From Pyrinomonadaceae bacterium (GTDB taxonomy: Bacteria; Acidobacteriota; Blastocatellia; Pyrinomonadales; Pyrinomonadaceae): 64,000 nucleotides of DNA. A program made the translations under genes and the position numbers. How positions within the stretch are numbered: the stretch's first letter is position 1; each line of letters begins with the position of its first letter. The notes under the pieces are model-generated. The model was not told where the DNA came from, did no database searches, and saw nothing but the letters and a program-made list of their open reading frames with translations. The DNA lies in the NCBI GenBank assembly GCA_019694355.1, contig JAIBCB010000002.1:186001-250000 (forward strand), read 5' to 3'. This document shows, piece by piece, positions 44,442-54,130 of the stretch.

Positions 44442-45305
44442 ATGAGAAGAAGCAACCTGCTTATTTTGGCGACGTGTCTTTTAGCCTGTGTCCCCGCATT
44501 TGCACAGGAAAGACCGCGATATTCCCTCGATAATTTCGACACTGCAAAAGGTGTTCACGTTACTCCGAAGCCGACCCCGGAGGTTGCATTCACCCGCAGC
44601 CGGCGTTCAAAAAAGAATTCCAGGAACAAGCTTGTCGAGAAGACAGCTTCGACGCGAACTGTCGCGTCTGATGGGATCGCTGACCGCGAGATCGCACGAA
44701 CATTGACCTCGCGGCAGCCTTCTACGCGTCTTGTGATGGGCACGGTCGCCGGGCTTAAAGGCTTTACGACAGGCGATACGGCGATCGACTCGTATATCGT
44801 CGATTCAAGCCGCAGATACCGTATCGATCCGCTGCTGATATACGCTCAGATGCACCAGGAGTCATCATTCAAGCTCCGAGCACTCTCAAATAAGGGTGCG
44901 AGCGGCCTGATGCAGCTTATGCCGGGGACGGCACGCCGTATGGGCGTTACGAATATTTACGATCCAAAGCAGAACATCGAGGGCGGCGTAAAGTATATGC
45001 GGCTCCTTCTCGACCTGTTCGGACAGGACGTGAACCTCGCACTTGCGGGCTATAACGCCGGCGAAGGCGCCGTGATTAAATACGGCAATTCGATCCCGCC
45101 GTACAGCGAAACACGAGAATACGTCCGCCGTATTTCGACGCGTTACCTTTCGATCTCGGACGGCTCGTATGCGCGGAGCATTCAACGGGTTTCGAACAGC
45201 AAGGCCGTCAAGATGGAAGAAAAGAAGGCTCTCGACCTCGGCTTCCAACAGGAAGCGGTCGTCATTCGCACTGCTGACGGACGAATGCGGCTCGTAAATC
45301 AATAA
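44442..45305 (+). CDS. Soluble periplasmic lytic transglycosylase (SLT family)
   Basis: A 287-residue protein with a signal peptide (LLILATCLLACVPAFA-Q). Residues 30-100 are a low-complexity basic linker. The SLT domain has the catalytic Glu140 in MHQESSFKLRALSNKGASG, GLMQLMPGTARRMG, NIEGGVKYMRLLL and ALAGYNAGEGAV. It cleaves peptidoglycan with formation of 1,6-anhydro ends. It is a single gene ending in a strong terminator. Confidence 0.93.
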   Translation: MRRSNLLILATCLLACVPAFAQERPRYSLDNFDTAKGVHVTPKPTPEVAFTRSRRSKKNSRNKLVEKTASTRTVASDGIADREIARTLTSRQPSTRLVMGTVAGLKGFTTGDTAIDSYIVDSSRRYRIDPLLIYAQMHQESSFKLRALSNKGASGLMQLMPGTARRMGVTNIYDPKQNIEGGVKYMRLLLDLFGQDVNLALAGYNAGEGAVIKYGNSIPPYSETREYVRRISTRYLSISDGSYARSIQRVSNSKAVKMEEKKALDLGFQQEAVVIRTADGRMRLVNQ

Positions 45306-46866: not shown

Positions 46867-47307
46867 ATGAGCGATCCCTGGCAAATGCCCGAGCCTGTAT
46901 TTCGCACCTCAGAAGGCGAGATCGTTGAGGCGCGCCCGCGAATCGAGACGCCGCCGAAGGTTGATGCGGCTCCAAGTGAAGACGCGGCCGCACTTGAGGC
47001 TCTTTATGCCCCGCCGGATGCGATAAAGCCCGCGAATACCGAGGCAGACTTTGCCGCGGTGCCGACAGCACCAGCCTCGCCGGCGCCCGCGGGAAAAGAA
47101 GCTGGCGGTGCGATTACCGATCAGCCATACGTCTCGGAGGAATATGACGTAGAGGAGATAAACGCCGCGGTCGCTGCCGCCACGCCGCAAAAGAGTTCAA
47201 AAGGCAGCCTGATCTTCAAGCTGCTGGCGGCCGCCGTTGTACTTGCTGCGTTGGCCGTTGCGGTAATCTTCCTCGCGTGGTTCTTGTTTATGCGGCCGAC
47301 AGAATAG
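46867..47307 (+). CDS. Tail-anchored Pro/Ala-rich protein at the head of the FHA genes
   Basis: A 146-residue protein. The first 110 residues are acidic and rich in Ala, Pro and Glu without clear fold (VFRTSEGEIVEARPR). The C-terminus is a single hydrophobic helix (FKLLAAAVVLAALAVAVIFL) ending in FMRPTE, so the protein is anchored by its tail with most of it in the cytosol. It precedes the three FHA-transglycosylase genes on the same strand; a functional link is inferred from position and shared acidic, Pro-rich composition. Confidence 0.6.
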   Translation: MSDPWQMPEPVFRTSEGEIVEARPRIETPPKVDAAPSEDAAALEALYAPPDAIKPANTEADFAAVPTAPASPAPAGKEAGGAITDQPYVSEEYDVEEINAAVAAATPQKSSKGSLIFKLLAAAVVLAALAVAVIFLAWFLFMRPTE

Positions 47308-47416: not shown

Positions 47417-49108
47417 ATGCAGTTCGCAATTCTAAAAACCGAAGATGGTGAGGTCGAGCTATCGAAGCCCGTTACCTCGATCGGACGCACGTCCGACAAC
47501 GATGTCTCATTTTCGGGCAATTCGAACATCTCGCGGTCGCACGCTGAGATCGAACTGCGCGACGGCATCTACTATTTGATCGACCCGGGCAGCAGCAACG
47601 GAACGACCGTCAATGACGAACCCGTGAAGGGCGAAGTTCGGCTCACAGACGGCGATAAGATCGTTTTTGGGGGCTCAGCCAAGGCAGAGTTCCTTTTTGG
47701 GTCTGCGACGCCTCAAAACGCCTCTGAAGGGCAAGCGGAGGCAAATCCACAAACGCCCTCCGCGGATGCCGCCGGTTCCGGCCCAAACCCGCTTTCGGAC
47801 GCGGGCGGCCAGATCGGTTATCAGGCCGATTATGCAATGAATCAGGGCCTTTACGATGCGGGAAGCGGGCTGCGGAACAACATCGCAAGTTCGCTCGCCT
47901 CGGGCGGTTCTTCTGGTGCATCAAGTGCGGCGGCAAGTTCCGCCGGAACGGCAGGAGCAGCGGCGGCTGAAACGGCTGCGGGCGGCAGCGGTTCGACGGT
48001 GATGGTCGCGGGCATTGTCGGCGGACTGGCGGTCGTAGCGATGGTTGGTGCCGGTGCTTATTACTACACGCGAGGTGCATCGTCTTGTTCGGCGACGGCG
48101 AAGATCACCAGCCCCGAACAGGGCGAAACGCTCGCAAAGCCGACCGATATTCAGCTTGATATCTCGGATGCCGATGGCTGCGTCGCTCGGGCCGTTTTGA
48201 TGGTCGATCAAAAGCCGGTCGCATCCGCCGAACCTCCGAATTTTGATGCGAGGATCGATCCGGCGGAGCACCCGGAACTTGCGGACGGCGATGTTCACGA
48301 TCTTTCCGTCGTACTTTATGACAAGAACGGCGGCGAGGCGGTGCAGAACAGCACTGTGATGCTTGCATTCGATTCTCGTTCGGTCGCGAAACCCGAAACG
48401 CAAAATACACCTCAAGCCGGAGTGACGCCGCCCCCGCAAAATCCGACCGCCGCGAAGGTCACGCTCCTTGATGTGCAAAAGATGTCGCAGGCGCTTGTCA
48501 AAGAGTTCACGGGCGGGTTGGCATACGATCTCTCCGACAAGCAGTTCATGCAGGAGATCCAGAAGCGGACGGCGGAATATGCGGTCCCGGGCTACACGGA
48601 AAGAGCCGCGAAATACCGCGATGCGATAAACGTATCGTTCACGCACGAACAGAACTTGGACGCGCCGCTCGGATTTATCCTTGCGATGAGCCGCAGCAAG
48701 TTCGATCCCGCGAAAAAGGGCGACCTTGCAGGCCTATGGCAGATGAGCGATGCCTTTGTCGCCGACAACAAATACAACGGAACATGCGGTACGGAGACCA
48801 TTGCCGACCCGGCGCAGAATTGTGCCGCGAAGGCCTGCGCGTTGTATATGAAGTTCCTTGTTTACAGTGTTTTTGATTCGGATCCGATATATGCGGCAGC
48901 CGCATTCGGGAAGTCGCCGGCGGACGCTGCTGCCTGGAAGGCGACATTTACTGCTGACAGGTCAAAGATTTGGAGTAATATAAAGACAGCGCCCGAACGT
49001 GAGCAGCTCGTAAGATTCTTTGCCGCAGGAATAGTCGCCGAGAACCCGCAAAAATTTGGCCTTGCCAACGAGCAGCCGCTTTCGGTGCTGTATCGTGTAA
49101 CGATGTAG
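47417..49108 (+). CDS. FHA-TM-transglycosylase-like protein 1 (catalytic Glu lost)
   Basis: A 563-residue protein, first of three paralogues. An FHA domain fills residues 1-95 with the phosphothreonine-binding set IGRTSDND (Arg24), SRSHAE (Ser41, His42) and GSSNGT (Asn61). A Gly/Ser/Ala-rich linker leads to one membrane helix (195-217, MVAGIVGGLAVVAMVGAGAY). Outside are an Ig-like region (about 225-320) and a domain shaped like the SLT transglycosylase (395-555). There, where FHA protein 2 has LAMIES, this one has LAMSRS, so the catalytic Glu is Arg426; GLWQMSD replaces GLMQ. It is probably a structural partner. It is in operon with the next two genes. Confidence 0.8.
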   Translation: MQFAILKTEDGEVELSKPVTSIGRTSDNDVSFSGNSNISRSHAEIELRDGIYYLIDPGSSNGTTVNDEPVKGEVRLTDGDKIVFGGSAKAEFLFGSATPQNASEGQAEANPQTPSADAAGSGPNPLSDAGGQIGYQADYAMNQGLYDAGSGLRNNIASSLASGGSSGASSAAASSAGTAGAAAAETAAGGSGSTVMVAGIVGGLAVVAMVGAGAYYYTRGASSCSATAKITSPEQGETLAKPTDIQLDISDADGCVARAVLMVDQKPVASAEPPNFDARIDPAEHPELADGDVHDLSVVLYDKNGGEAVQNSTVMLAFDSRSVAKPETQNTPQAGVTPPPQNPTAAKVTLLDVQKMSQALVKEFTGGLAYDLSDKQFMQEIQKRTAEYAVPGYTERAAKYRDAINVSFTHEQNLDAPLGFILAMSRSKFDPAKKGDLAGLWQMSDAFVADNKYNGTCGTETIADPAQNCAAKACALYMKFLVYSVFDSDPIYAAAAFGKSPADAAAWKATFTADRSKIWSNIKTAPEREQLVRFFAAGIVAENPQKFGLANEQPLSVLYRVTM

Positions 49109-49119
49109 GCCGACAGAAA

Positions 49120-50577
49120 ATGAAGTTCCTTTTCGTACAAGAAGTTGACGGCGAGATACGCGAGATCGTGCTTGAAAAAGAGCACACGACGATCGGGCGT
49201 GCGACGGACGTTGACCTGCAGCTGGACGATCAGGGGCTTTCGCGGCTGAATTCGACGATCTATCTTGACGCTGACACGGTGCGGATCGTCGATAATGGCT
49301 CGACGAACGGAACGCTCGTGAACGACGAACCTGCGTCGGCGGACGGCACGATCCTCGATGACGGCGATGTCGTGAAGATGGGCAGTTCGACGGTGTTGAA
49401 ATTCAAGAAAGTTGCGGATGAAGCACCGGCGAACGCCGATGATCACGTGCAGCCGGATGTGTCGGCCGCTGCTTTTGCTCCGGCGACGGCTCCCGTTGCA
49501 GTTCCTCCGCCAGCGCCAACGCCATTGAATTACTTACCGTTGGCGATCATCGTGGGTGCGATATTTGTCATCGGCATTTCTGCGGCGGTGATCGCGATGA
49601 CGGCCTTTTCAGGGAAAGGCGAGGTTGCCACGACAAATCCGTACACGGGCGACGACCCGACATCGTCGAGCGATCGCGACGGCGATCCCGGTTCCACGCC
49701 GACGAGTTCGCCATCGATTCAAGGTAGTTCTCAAACGGATACGAATACATCGTCGAATTCCGATCTTCCGACCGCGCAATCCACGCCCGTAAAGCCAGAC
49801 CTTCCCGCAAAGCAGTATTCCGCGATGACGGATGCGGAAAAGCGTGCGTATATCGAAGACCGTGCGATGCGCGTCGCCCAGATCATCGGCAATTCGACGA
49901 GTGAAAAGATTCCGCCGGACGCGGTTACACGGATCAAGAGTTTTGTGGATGCGTATGTTTCGCGGACGAAGGTCAAGCCGCTTTCGGGATGCCGTTTTGG
50001 CGACAATCTGCAAGCAACCTACACGCGAGCGAGCAAGAACGCGCCGTTCATCATTCGAGCGTTCAACGAAAAGGGAATGGATCCGCGGATCGGGCTTTAT
50101 CTCGCTATGATCGAGTCCGAACATTGCACGTGTCTGCAAAGTCCGACGGGGCCGCTCGGGATGTTTCAGTTTACGCAGGCTACCGGAAGGCTTCATGGGC
50201 TGAATATCATTCCCGGAGCGACGCCAGCTCATCCTGATGAACGGTGCGAGCCGGAACCGGCGTCGCGTGCCGCGGCATCGTATATGAAGGCGTTGGCAGG
50301 ACGCTACGGAACAGGGCCGTCGAGCATTCCGCTTGCGATCGGCAGTTACAACAGCGGCGAAGGCGGCCTCAGTTCGAACCTCGAAAAAGCATTGTCGTCC
50401 GGCACAGGTTTGCCTCGTGAATTCTGGACGCTTATCGAGAAGAGCGATATGCTCTCAAAGCAATTCCAATCGGAGAACTTCAAATACGTGCCGAAATTTT
50501 TTGCCGCAGCCATCATAGGCGAAAATCCGAGAGATTTTGGCCTCGACCTGAATCCGATCTCAACATATACGAAGTAA
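49120..50577 (+). CDS. FHA-TM-lytic transglycosylase protein 2 (active-site Glu present)
   Basis: A 485-residue paralogue. The FHA domain (1-97) keeps IGRATD (Arg27) and STNGT but has SRLN where S-x-x-H is usual (Asn44), so phosphopeptide binding may be altered. The membrane helix is 138-160 (YLPLAIIVGAIFVIGISAAV), so the FHA domain is cytosolic and the C-terminus periplasmic. After a Ser/Thr-rich linker comes an SLT domain: YLAMIESEHC with Glu332, GPLGMFQFTQATG, AAASYMKAL and IGSYNSGEGG. Four extra cysteines may form disulfides. It should cleave peptidoglycan locally. The gap to protein 1 is 11 bases. Confidence 0.85.
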   Translation: MKFLFVQEVDGEIREIVLEKEHTTIGRATDVDLQLDDQGLSRLNSTIYLDADTVRIVDNGSTNGTLVNDEPASADGTILDDGDVVKMGSSTVLKFKKVADEAPANADDHVQPDVSAAAFAPATAPVAVPPPAPTPLNYLPLAIIVGAIFVIGISAAVIAMTAFSGKGEVATTNPYTGDDPTSSSDRDGDPGSTPTSSPSIQGSSQTDTNTSSNSDLPTAQSTPVKPDLPAKQYSAMTDAEKRAYIEDRAMRVAQIIGNSTSEKIPPDAVTRIKSFVDAYVSRTKVKPLSGCRFGDNLQATYTRASKNAPFIIRAFNEKGMDPRIGLYLAMIESEHCTCLQSPTGPLGMFQFTQATGRLHGLNIIPGATPAHPDERCEPEPASRAAASYMKALAGRYGTGPSSIPLAIGSYNSGEGGLSSNLEKALSSGTGLPREFWTLIEKSDMLSKQFQSENFKYVPKFFAAAIIGENPRDFGLDLNPISTYTK

Positions 50578-50598
50578 CCTGCCGTTTTCGCTGCCTAA

Positions 50599-51795
50599 AT
50601 GAGTGATCTCCGACTAAAGTTCATTGACGCCGATGGCAGCGACGTCTCTTTTGAGGCCAGCGACAGCTTGATCACGATCGGGCGGCATTCGAATAATTCG
50701 CTTGTGATCGCTGACGGCAGACTTTCGCGAGAGCATCTGCGGCTCGAGCGCGAAGGCCCGAATTGGTACGCGGAAGATCTCGGTTCGTCGAACGGCACGA
50801 CGCTGAATGGCGAAACCCTTCGCGACCAGCAGCGGCTAAAGAATGGCGACAAGCTCAGCCTCGGCGGGCTTGAGATCGCGGTCGAGATCGAGCAGGCAAA
50901 GGCAGCGGAACCGGCAGTTCAGGCTCCGCCGCCTGTACAGACGAATGTTCCGGCTACTCCGGCAATGCCCGCTCCCGCGGCGGCGTCGAGCGGCGGACTT
51001 TCGTTTTCGTTCATCTTGCTCGCGCCGGCACTTGGATTGATAGTGATCTTGATCGCCGGCGGCTTTTTGTACTTTTCGAGTAAGAAAAAGCCCGAGACGG
51101 ATGCGAACGACATCACGTATTCGACGCCCGACGGCTCGAGCACACCGTCAACGGACGCGACGCCGGTCGCCTCGCAGACTGAGAACGCTGCAACGCCCGA
51201 GACTCCGAGCGGTACGCCGACAAAGGAAGATACCGCGACGCAAAAGGTCGAGAAGTTCGCCGCTCAATTTATGCGAAAGGCGGCGGGGAACGATCCGCGA
51301 TATTTTTTGACGGGAGCACAGGCCGCAGAGGTAGCAAAACGCGTGCAGTCGATGAGCGGAGCGGTGAAGGCCAATCTACCGTCGATCACAAAAAGGTCGG
51401 GTGAGTTGAGCAAACTCGCTGCGGCGAATGGTTTGAACGCTGATTTTCTCGCGGCCGCGGGCCTTGCAAAGCTTGGCTCAGGTCGCGGAGATGCTTTTGC
51501 CGCGGCAAGTTCGATGGCGGGCATTTTCTCTCGGCTGACAGGCCCGGTCGGGAATGAACTTGGCGACGATTGCCTTTTGATGGTCGCGGCATACGATCAG
51601 GGAGCGGCCGGCGACTTTTTGAAATTGCGAAATATGCTGCAGGATCTTGCGACAAAGGTCAACAATGTTCCGGCACGTGAGATACGCTCGATCTGGTACC
51701 TTAACAAGACGGGCAAGATAACATCGCAGGAATATGAACTCGCACTGCGATTCCTGGCAGCGGGCACGATAATGCAGGATCCTGCGTCGTTTTGA
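50599..51795 (+). CDS. FHA-TM-transglycosylase-like protein 3 (degenerate)
   Basis: A 398-residue paralogue. The FHA domain (1-98) is the most canonical of the three: IGRHSNN (Arg29), SREH (Ser43, His46), GSSNGTTLNG. The membrane helix is 136-159 (FSFILLAPALGLIVILIAGG). The periplasmic domain is shortened; the catalytic Glu position reads LAAAG (Gly288), while VAAYDQGAAG still mirrors the YNSGEG motif. It shares the final block RFLAAGTIMQDPASF with the other two. It is likely a scaffold or regulator of the active member. Confidence 0.78.
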   Translation: MSDLRLKFIDADGSDVSFEASDSLITIGRHSNNSLVIADGRLSREHLRLEREGPNWYAEDLGSSNGTTLNGETLRDQQRLKNGDKLSLGGLEIAVEIEQAKAAEPAVQAPPPVQTNVPATPAMPAPAAASSGGLSFSFILLAPALGLIVILIAGGFLYFSSKKKPETDANDITYSTPDGSSTPSTDATPVASQTENAATPETPSGTPTKEDTATQKVEKFAAQFMRKAAGNDPRYFLTGAQAAEVAKRVQSMSGAVKANLPSITKRSGELSKLAAANGLNADFLAAAGLAKLGSGRGDAFAAASSMAGIFSRLTGPVGNELGDDCLLMVAAYDQGAAGDFLKLRNMLQDLATKVNNVPAREIRSIWYLNKTGKITSQEYELALRFLAAGTIMQDPASF

Positions 51796-51851: not shown

Positions 51852-52688
51852 ATGGCTGATGAATGGATAACCGGTAATTTTAAGCTCCGCATACACGGCG
51901 AGCCGATCGAGATGCAGGTGACCGTGCCGACCGCGAAGGTGAAGCCGCAAAGGATGCTGCCGCTCTTTCAGGAGATGGCATCGACGGTCGTTGACCAATG
52001 TGTTGCGGTGGTCGAGAGCGAAGGCAAAAAGGTGTCGTGCAAGGCAGGCTGCGGCGCGTGCTGTCGCCAGGCTGTGCCGATCTCGGAGATCGAGGCATAT
52101 CACATCGCCGAGATCGTGAACGAGATGCCGCCGGAGAGACAGGCCATTATTCGCAAACGCTTTGCGGATGCGCTTGCACATTTTCGCAAGATCAAATGGT
52201 TCGACGAGCTCATCGGCCTAAAGGATATGGCGTATGAAGGCTCGCCGGAATTTTCAGCGGAAAAATACGCCGAGGTTATCACGAAATATATGAAGCAGGG
52301 CTACGCGTGCCCGTTCCTCGAGGATGAGTCCTGCTCGATCCACAAAGATCGGCCGGCGGTCTGCCGAGAGTATCTCGTAACGTCACCAGCGGAGAATTGT
52401 GCCGATCCGCGTGCCGACACGATCAAGAAAGTGCCGATCTACCTGCGGCCGTCGAAAGCCTTGCTAAAATTAGGCAAAACGGAAACGACCGAGAACTGGT
52501 CTTCGGTGATAATGATCGAGGCCCTCGACCTGGTTGAGAAGAATCCGGACCGTTTGGAAGAGAAGACCGGGCCGGAATGGACCGAGGAATTCTTCAATGC
52601 GTTGGCATCGACCGAGAAGATCCTAAAGGATGATCCGGCGCCGTCCCGAAGGCGGAAAAAGCCGCGTCATTCTCGGAAGGGACGCTAA
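51852..52688 (+). CDS. YkgJ-type cysteine-cluster protein
   Basis: A 278-residue protein from the ATG at 51852. KVSCKAGCGACCRQAVPIS carries the CxxxCxxCC cluster (Cys63, 67, 70, 71), and the second group lies in ACPFLEDESCSIHKDRPAVC, together the metal site (Zn or Fe-S) of the YkgJ family. The central helical insert is about 60 residues. The end is strongly basic (SRRRKKPRHSRKGR). Role unknown. It lies between the FHA genes and tssK on the same strand. Confidence 0.85.
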   Translation: MADEWITGNFKLRIHGEPIEMQVTVPTAKVKPQRMLPLFQEMASTVVDQCVAVVESEGKKVSCKAGCGACCRQAVPISEIEAYHIAEIVNEMPPERQAIIRKRFADALAHFRKIKWFDELIGLKDMAYEGSPEFSAEKYAEVITKYMKQGYACPFLEDESCSIHKDRPAVCREYLVTSPAENCADPRADTIKKVPIYLRPSKALLKLGKTETTENWSSVIMIEALDLVEKNPDRLEEKTGPEWTEEFFNALASTEKILKDDPAPSRRRKKPRHSRKGR

Positions 52689-52777: not shown

Positions 52778-54130
52778 ATGAGCAAATACCGAAAGATCGT
52801 CTGGAACGAGGGAATGCTGCTGACGCCTCAGCATTTCCAGCAATGGGATAATTATCACGAGGAACTCGTAAATTCTCGTGTGCGGTCGGTCGCGCCTTAC
52901 GCGTACGGCGTGCTCGGGATGCAGATAAACCACGAGGCGATCGGAAATGCAAATTTTCAGATCACGGCCTGTCGGGCGGTGATGCCGGACGGCCTCTATC
53001 TGAACTTTCCCGACCAGGAAGGCGCTCCGGATCTGCGGCCTGTCGGCGATCATTTTCACGCCGAGCAGGAAAAGCTGGGCGTCTATCTCGCGATCCCGGC
53101 AAAGAAGATGGGCGAGGCGAATTTCCAGGGAAGCGGAGCCGCACCGCAGCCGAACATTCGCTATCTGCAGGAAGGCGCGCTTGTCCGCGACGAGACCAGC
53201 GGAACGAACGAGCAGCCGGTCGCGTACGCACGCAACAACGTGCGCATCGTTTTTGATGACGAGATACGCGATGGATTTACCTCGATAAAGATCGCTGAGC
53301 TGACGCGAACGCCGACCGGTCAATTCCAGATCTCGAATGAATATATCCCGCCGATCCTTGATGTTACGGCGTCGGATTGGCTCGTGAGCATGCTTCGGCA
53401 GCTTGTTGAGGTGCTCATCACAAAGAGCGGCAGTCTCGGCGAACAGCGACGTCAGCGTCAGGCCGGACTTGCAGACTTTACGACGTCTGATGCGGGAGTT
53501 TTTTGGCTGCTGCACACGATCAATTCGTCGATCCCGACGATCGCTCATTATTTTCGGGCGCAGCTTGTTCATCCTGAGAAACTTTACCTGGAAATGGCGA
53601 CCTTGGCCGGCAAGTTGATGACCTTCTCGACGGATCACAATCCGAAGGACATCGTAAAATACGACCACGACGACCTTTATTTCACGTTCTACACGCTGAA
53701 TGCACAGCTTCGGCTGCTGCTCGAAACCGTTATTCCGAGCCGCTGTGTTGCGATTCCGCTTGAGAAGGTGCGCGATGCCCTGTATGTCGGCCGTGTCGAG
53801 GACGAGAGGCTCTTGAAGGAGGCCGGATTCTTCCTTGCCGTACGATCGCAGATGCCGGAGGCAAAACTTATCGAGGGCGTGCCGCGCGTCATCAAGATCG
53901 CGTCGCGTGATGTGATCGACACGGTCATCGGCTCGGCTCTGCCGGGCGTAGTGCTTTCGTATTCAAATCCGCCGCCGGCACCGATACCGGCTCGCATCGG
54001 GTTCAAGTATTTCAGTCTCGATTCGAACGGGCCTTATTGGGACGGCATACGCGGATCGAAGGTGCTCGCCGTTTATGTTCCCGACGAGATCCCGGGCGAA
54101 AAGCTCGAGATGTACGCCGTTAAGCCTTAA
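52778..54130 (+). CDS. tssK: Type VI secretion baseplate subunit TssK
   Basis: A 450-residue protein. The opening IVWNEGMLLTPQHFQQWDNY is the TssK signature, followed by AVMPDGLYLNFP, LYLAIPAK-like strands, and the C-terminal receptor-binding-type domain; length matches the family (about 445). TssK trimers join the baseplate to the membrane complex TssJLM. No other tss gene is in the window, but the three FHA proteins just upstream fit, since FHA proteins regulate T6SS assembly. The alternative, a TssK-like part of another contractile system, cannot be excluded. Confidence 0.9.
   Translation: MSKYRKIVWNEGMLLTPQHFQQWDNYHEELVNSRVRSVAPYAYGVLGMQINHEAIGNANFQITACRAVMPDGLYLNFPDQEGAPDLRPVGDHFHAEQEKLGVYLAIPAKKMGEANFQGSGAAPQPNIRYLQEGALVRDETSGTNEQPVAYARNNVRIVFDDEIRDGFTSIKIAELTRTPTGQFQISNEYIPPILDVTASDWLVSMLRQLVEVLITKSGSLGEQRRQRQAGLADFTTSDAGVFWLLHTINSSIPTIAHYFRAQLVHPEKLYLEMATLAGKLMTFSTDHNPKDIVKYDHDDLYFTFYTLNAQLRLLLETVIPSRCVAIPLEKVRDALYVGRVEDERLLKEAGFFLAVRSQMPEAKLIEGVPRVIKIASRDVIDTVIGSALPGVVLSYSNPPPAPIPARIGFKYFSLDSNGPYWDGIRGSKVLAVYVPDEIPGEKLEMYAVKP

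Follow-up and report, generated by a model that had tools for sequence, protein, structure and literature searches.

The membrane complex of the type VI secretion system (T6SS) has a width of about 18 nm. It is far wider than the pores of the peptidoglycan, and in EAEC the T6SS recruits the housekeeping lytic transglycosylase (LT) MltE, which is stimulated by TssM (PMC10433429). According to the published view, dedicated LTs are the exception in T6SS clusters, and the secretion system depends on domesticating an LT with a housekeeping function (PMC10433429). In Agrobacterium, Fha binds a phosphothreonine of TssL (PMC3953482), and in Acidovorax the assembly of the T6SS is governed by a PpkA-Fha axis (PMC12607579). 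Here we describe three adjacent genes of an uncultured acidobacterium (Pyrinomonadaceae), located in a stretch of 64,000 nucleotides (the window). The encoded proteins, P1, P2, and P3, have a common layout, in which an FHA domain is combined with a single membrane helix and with a C-terminal domain of predicted LT fold.

The trio shares the N-terminal FHA domain, the location in a T6SS cluster, and the phosphothreonine-binding residues with the Fha/TagH proteins, e.g., Fha1 of P. aeruginosa and Fha of A. tumefaciens. However, it consists of three proteins instead of one, and in each of them the FHA domain is linked to a membrane helix and to a domain with LT fold. Membership in the TagH family (TIGR03354) was considered and rejected, with 44.7, 32.0, and 53.1 bits for the three proteins versus a cut-off of 120.25. 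MltE of EAEC has the LT fold and the proposed opening of the wall for a membrane complex in common with the trio, but it is a housekeeping lipoprotein in its own right with a gene at another location, whereas the putative LT of the trio is encoded with the T6SS, predicted to be anchored in the inner membrane, fused to an FHA domain, and accompanied by two pseudoenzymes. Acinetobacter TagX (AsaE), which is found with TsmK and TslA, is likewise a cluster-encoded, wall-acting membrane protein of a T6SS with a membrane complex lacking TssJ, but it has been described as an endopeptidase, lacks an FHA domain, and is not part of a paralogous trio (PMC10564176). The closest solved structure is MltD of P. 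aeruginosa (8rhe, 8rhf, 8rhi), for P2 by sequence profile and for P1 and P3 by fold; unlike the trio, MltD carries LysM domains and lacks an FHA domain. Lastly, SctD/YscD of type III secretion and GltG of gliding motility also consist of an FHA-like cytosolic domain, a membrane helix, and a periplasmic domain, but the periplasmic part of the trio is LT-like, and the scores for the respective family models stay below the cut-offs.

The trio is undescribed in the searchable literature. A search that covered neither preprints nor most subscription journals found no paper joining type VI secretion and Blastocatellia, and, according to title and abstract, none of the papers touching on FHA domains, LTs, and type VI secretion deals with such a fusion.

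Layout and predicted fold of the three proteins

P1 (563 aa, 47417..49108), P2 (485 aa, 49120..50577), and P3 (398 aa, 50599..51795) are encoded by co-directional ORFs on the + strand, as are all other features of the window named below, and the gaps between them are only 11 bp and 21 bp. Pfam searches placed FHA domains, all scoring above the cut-off, at 47474-47671 in P1 (E 2e-18), 49186-49383 in P2 (E 2e-13), and 50671-50865 in P3 (E 1e-18). The residues that bind phosphothreonine (the Arg, Ser, and Asn-Gly positions) are conserved in the homologue sets of all three proteins. Each protein contains a single strongly hydrophobic segment, the predicted membrane helix, at about 47999-48061 in P1 (residues 195-213), about 49540-49602 in P2 (residues 141-159), and about 50998-51066 in P3 (residues 134-152). 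Conserved cysteines, even in number and paired, are present in the C-terminal part of P1 and of P2, which fits a periplasmic location.

The C-terminal domains differ in how easily they are recognized. The domain of P2 (49774-50574) matches Pfam SLT (PF01464) with an E value of 5e-13, and its 49 bits are above the curated cut-off of 21.3. The SLT match of the P1 domain (48437-49105) is sub-threshold (0.024), as is a match to the Ig-like domain Big_7 between helix and C-terminal domain (48095-48268), and the Pfam search yielded no match at all for the C-terminal domain of P3 (51214-51792). Profile-profile comparisons based on alignments of each paralogue from related loci reveal homology of the three domains along almost their entire length (P1-P2 99.5%, P3-P2 96.3%, P3-P1 92.1%), and the P2 profile matches P. 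aeruginosa MltD with an E value of 9e-16. The AlphaFold models are confident, with pLDDT values of 92.6 for the P1 domain and 95.6 for the P3 domain. The best solved structures for the P1 model are MltD (Z 13.3, rmsd 3.8, 180 aligned residues) and MltE (Z 12.8). The same two are best for the P3 model, with a middling Z of 8.4 for MltD (rmsd 3.4, 146 aligned) and 8.1 for MltE; however, LTs, lysozymes, and wall hydrolases fill the first 18 rows of the P3 list, in accordance with the sequence profiles. Foldseek returned no match with E < 0.001 for the P1 or the P3 domain model and is insufficient by itself, and thus the assignment of P1 and P3 is based on three other lines of evidence: the comparison of profiles, the results of the structural aligner, and the position of LTs at the head of both lists. 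Judged by profiles and models, all three C-terminal domains have the LT fold.

The initial annotation had recognized three adjacent genes for proteins with an FHA domain, one membrane helix, and an SLT-like domain, in agreement with coordinates, Pfam, and profiles. It had also pointed out a similar block at the C-termini, which is real and turned out to be part of the LT-like domain, and it had made its idea of one complex dependent on a relationship of the P1 and P3 domains to SLT, which predicted structures and profiles indicate for both. Two minor observations concern the edges of the trio. P3 of the window ends at the TGA at 51793-51795 and is a few residues shorter at the C-terminus than most relatives, and the same is true for the homologue in genome G022. 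An extra secreted SLT-domain protein (44442-45305, PF01464 E 7e-26) is encoded 2.1 kb upstream of P1, and similar proteins are found near the trio in close relatives as well.

One putative enzyme and two pseudoenzymes

The catalytic column was read from one alignment of all C-terminal domains, i.e., 64 of P2 type, 44 of P1, and 46 of P3. The P2-type domains have Glu in 64 of 64 cases, kinase fusions included, and in P2 itself this is the predicted catalytic acid Glu332 (50113..50115), which is accompanied by the GxxQ-type motif GMFQF (50158-50172) and the AYNxG-type motif SYNSGEG (50344-50364). The invariance of the Glu indicates that catalysis, or at least the handling of glycan by that acid, is still used. 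P1 has Arg426 (48692..48694) at this position, and Arg is found in 42 of its 44 homologues, the other two having Gln and Glu, respectively. P3 has Lys291 (51469..51471); Lys occurs in 34 of the 46 P3 domains, Glu in five, and Arg in four. Arg426 and Lys291 are both residue 86 of their domain, and the matching helix spans residues 76-87 in both AlphaFold models. P3 also lacks the GMFQF loop, but has retained AAYDQG where P2 has SYNSGEG. Accordingly, P1, without the catalytic Glu, and P3, without the Glu and without the GxxQ loop, are classified from their sequences as pseudoenzymes.

Both pseudoenzymes are maintained. The dN/dS values of the three C-terminal domains between close relatives are only 0.02-0.10, which reveals purifying selection on P1 and P3 and rules out that one of them is decaying to a pseudogene. 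P1 and P3 each form a single clade (SH-aLRT 96 and 99, respectively), and thus the trio predates the split of the sampled families. The P3 domains with Glu include those of loci L077, L139, L140, and L142, the single P1 with Glu is from L142, and all of them are deep branches in the tree. This distribution suggests that P1 and P3 descended from acid-bearing LTs. The trio represents a case of pseudoenzyme evolution in which a base apparently took the place of the acid; some deep-branching homologues of P1 and P3 still have the Glu, whereas most others have Arg or Lys.

It had been proposed before that the trio comprises one LT and two paralogues devoid of the catalytic acid. This view is supported, and both paralogues are conserved. 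Glu332 and the YNSGEG motif of P2 as well as the Arg of P1 had been assigned correctly; for P3, a Gly (Gly288) had been placed at the position of the Glu, and the multiple alignment shows that it is occupied by Lys291 instead.

Linkage to type VI secretion

The second gene after P3 in the window is tssK (52778..54130), which encodes the T6SS baseplate subunit (PF05936 E 5e-129; TIGR03353 391.7 bits versus a cut-off of 100). Between P3 and tssK lies a gene for a CxxCxxCC protein (51852..52688, PF03692), which is retained in most related loci, and a small protein with a C-terminal membrane helix (46867..47307) is encoded upstream of P1, as it is in many related loci. TssC is encoded about 82 kb downstream on the same contig, and the neighbouring genes resemble tssA, B, E, F, G, H, vgrG, and a PAAR gene, names that were given from the sequences and not by profile search. 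The genes tssL, tssM, and tagJ (ImpE) are located on another contig. In G038, a genome of the same genus, the order is small membrane protein, P1, P2, P3, CxxCxxCC protein, tssK, tssL, and tssM, and the cluster continues with genes for sheath, Hcp-like, baseplate, ClpV-like, and VgrG-like proteins. T6SS genes are thus found in three places of the window genome (C5:233-240 kb, C5:320-335 kb, and C6:552-557 kb) versus one cluster in G038.

Short conserved peptides were used to scan one genome each for 84,980 species, a procedure that may miss distant relatives. It led to 80 loci, nearly all of them from Acidobacteriota and chiefly from Pyrinomonadaceae and other Blastocatellia; in a few loci from Gemmatimonadetes and Nitrospiria the similarity is confined to the LT domain. 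P1, P2, and P3 occur in this order in 38 of these loci, and tssK follows in 30 of the 38, with or without the gene for the CxxCxxCC protein. In most of the remaining eight the contig ends near the trio, and in one, L119, the trio has no tssK nearby. The proteins occur mostly as a set and not as singletons, and the idea of one complex, which the initial annotation would have considered refuted by homologues occurring singly, has withstood this check as well. In two loci (L140 and L142, the latter from genome G073) P2 and the P3 domain are united in one protein with the order FHA-helix-LT-LT, which is encoded next to tssK; such a fusion points to a joint action of P2 and P3. Exceptions are L129, L130, and L147, where P1 or P3 is missing near P2, and genome G050, in which P2-like and P3-like proteins are encoded by divergent genes and lack the FHA domain.

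Co-occurrence was quantified in an even set of 297 Acidobacteriota, in which the P3 domain is present in 17 genomes and TssK in 51. The P3 domain was found in 17 of 17 TssK-bearing Blastocatellia and in 0 of 15 members of this class without TssK, and also in 0 of 34 TssK-bearing genomes of other classes (five of these 34 have only a weak TssK match). Because the sampled genomes are related, the Fisher value (2e-9) is only indicative. The trio is encoded with T6SS core genes and, within its class, is present only with them. Judged from gene order and co-occurrence, the trio belongs to the type VI secretion system, and this envelope accessory is real and conserved. From the interpretation of the initial annotation, the set of enzyme and pseudoenzymes, the FHA residues, and the co-occurrence have stood, while the Gly of P3 has given way to Lys291 and the membership in a T6SS had been overlooked.

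Several further genes were noticed in the vicinity of these loci and of the T6SS genes. The window genome encodes another FHA protein of about 505 aa near the main T6SS cluster (C5:341934-342440). Away from the T6SS genes, on C6, it contains a gene for a protein of 508 aa with TssB-like (VipA) and TssC-like (VipB) domains in one chain (L005:9327-10853), which makes it a sheath protein that is either fused or an orphan. Upstream of the trio, other lineages have a gene for a protein with an FGE-sulfatase domain (confirmed in L136:2400-4902), which recalls TagR of the threonine-phosphorylation pathway, and in L077 (14055-17990) genes for secreted DUF4384 proteins and a trypsin-like protease. An FHA-GAF-adenylate/guanylate cyclase protein is encoded about 3 kb from the P2 homologue of L129 (1861-3498).

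Putative role and alternative explanations

On balance, and with reservations, we favour the view that the trio is a dedicated LT module of one enzyme and two pseudoenzymes, a lineage-specific T6SS accessory of the Blastocatellia that opens the wall and is tied to phospho-signalling by its FHA domains. P1, P2, and P3 would reside in the inner membrane, with the FHA domain in the cytosol and the LT-fold domain in the periplasm. P2 would be a working lytic transglycosylase whose local cuts in the peptidoglycan would make room for the insertion of the TssL-TssM membrane complex, and P1 and P3 would be pseudoenzymes that hold, position, or restrain P2 in a joint complex, which may be recruited to TssL-TssM. 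The FHA domains may bind phosphothreonine, either on a T6SS component or on a partner within the trio, and this binding would tie wall opening to T6SS assembly. More tentatively, we put forward that this may be a class-wide T6SS variant, in which the envelope complex has its own phospho-gated cutter, i.e., one FHA-LT enzyme held by two FHA pseudo-LTs with the acid changed to a base, compared to a single soluble Fha and a borrowed housekeeping LT elsewhere. The trio thus bears on the question of how the T6SS membrane complex crosses the peptidoglycan, and since an LT tied to a T6SS locus and a phospho-reader are part of the same polypeptide, a link between threonine phosphorylation and wall opening becomes directly testable.

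A few points speak against this role. No kinase is encoded beside the T6SS genes of the window genome; all 14 kinase matches are located elsewhere in the genome, and a partner kinase adjoining the locus was therefore rejected (0 of 14). The proteins of G050 without FHA domain, the incomplete sets of L129, L130, and L147, and the absence of tssK from the vicinity in L119 are also at odds with it. Furthermore, the same LT family occurs outside of T6SS loci in fusions with kinases, an arrangement as compatible with sensing as with cutting. A known example of a sensor built on an enzyme fold is BlaR1. Similarly, the LT-fold domains could bind peptidoglycan, P2 perhaps with a slow turnover, and the state or damage of the wall could be reported from the outside to the FHA domains, licensing or placing T6SS assembly. 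In line with this, two of the three LT-fold domains at the T6SS lack the catalytic acid, and of 14 relatives of the P2 domain outside of T6SS loci, 13 are joined to Ser/Thr kinases and one to a BlaR1-type M56 peptidase. Because the domain has repeatedly been joined to signalling parts, a role in wall sensing retains some plausibility. However, the catalytic Glu is invariant in all 64 P2-type domains including the kinase fusions, as expected if catalysis matters, and an FHA domain reads phosphorylation but does not write it. We regard sensing as the foremost alternative, but as unlikely.

It is improbable that the trio is a structural element, either an inner-membrane collar around TssL-TssM comparable to the SctD ring or a stand-in for TssJ, with LT folds that bind peptidoglycan. 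The layout is that of SctD/YscD, and PF16697 scores above the cut-off in P2 and P3, but P2 reaches only 16.8 bits versus 86 with the SctD/YscD family model (TIGR02500), which has no match listed for P1 and P3, and the catalytic Glu of P2 is conserved. The trio precedes tssK at the place where G250, a genome of another class, has TssJ, and the TssJ family (PF12790) gave no match in 23 trio-type and related T6SS genomes; however, the same is true for 17 of 20 T6SS-bearing genomes of other classes. Beyond this phylum, too, a considerable share of the genomes with a T6SS is devoid of TssJ (PMC10564176). As TssJ goes unrecognized in most other T6SS of Acidobacteriota, its absence is uninformative, and the replacement of TssJ by the trio was dropped and is not claimed. 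Lastly, a function in general wall metabolism with tssK as a chance neighbour is hardly credible: the split of the T6SS genes over three places in the window genome makes adjacency by itself weak evidence, but chance is contradicted by the co-occurrence, the presence and absence matching TssK exactly within the class, and by the conserved order in 30 loci and the full cluster in G038.

In the 13 kinase fusions outside of T6SS loci, e.g., L083:8491-10503, L084:5647-7752, and proteins from loci L144-L165 (alignment A5), a Ser/Thr kinase is joined to a P2-family LT domain, and they can be regarded as the writer version of the FHA-LT reader proteins. In several loci their genes adjoin a gene for an ECF-type sigma factor, and in L083 and L084 the fusion is accompanied by the gene for a stand-alone LT protein of about 275 aa. 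The sole member without a kinase (L160:5442-7304) is apparently a fusion of a BlaR1-type M56 peptidase and the LT domain, and it contains a HELAH motif.
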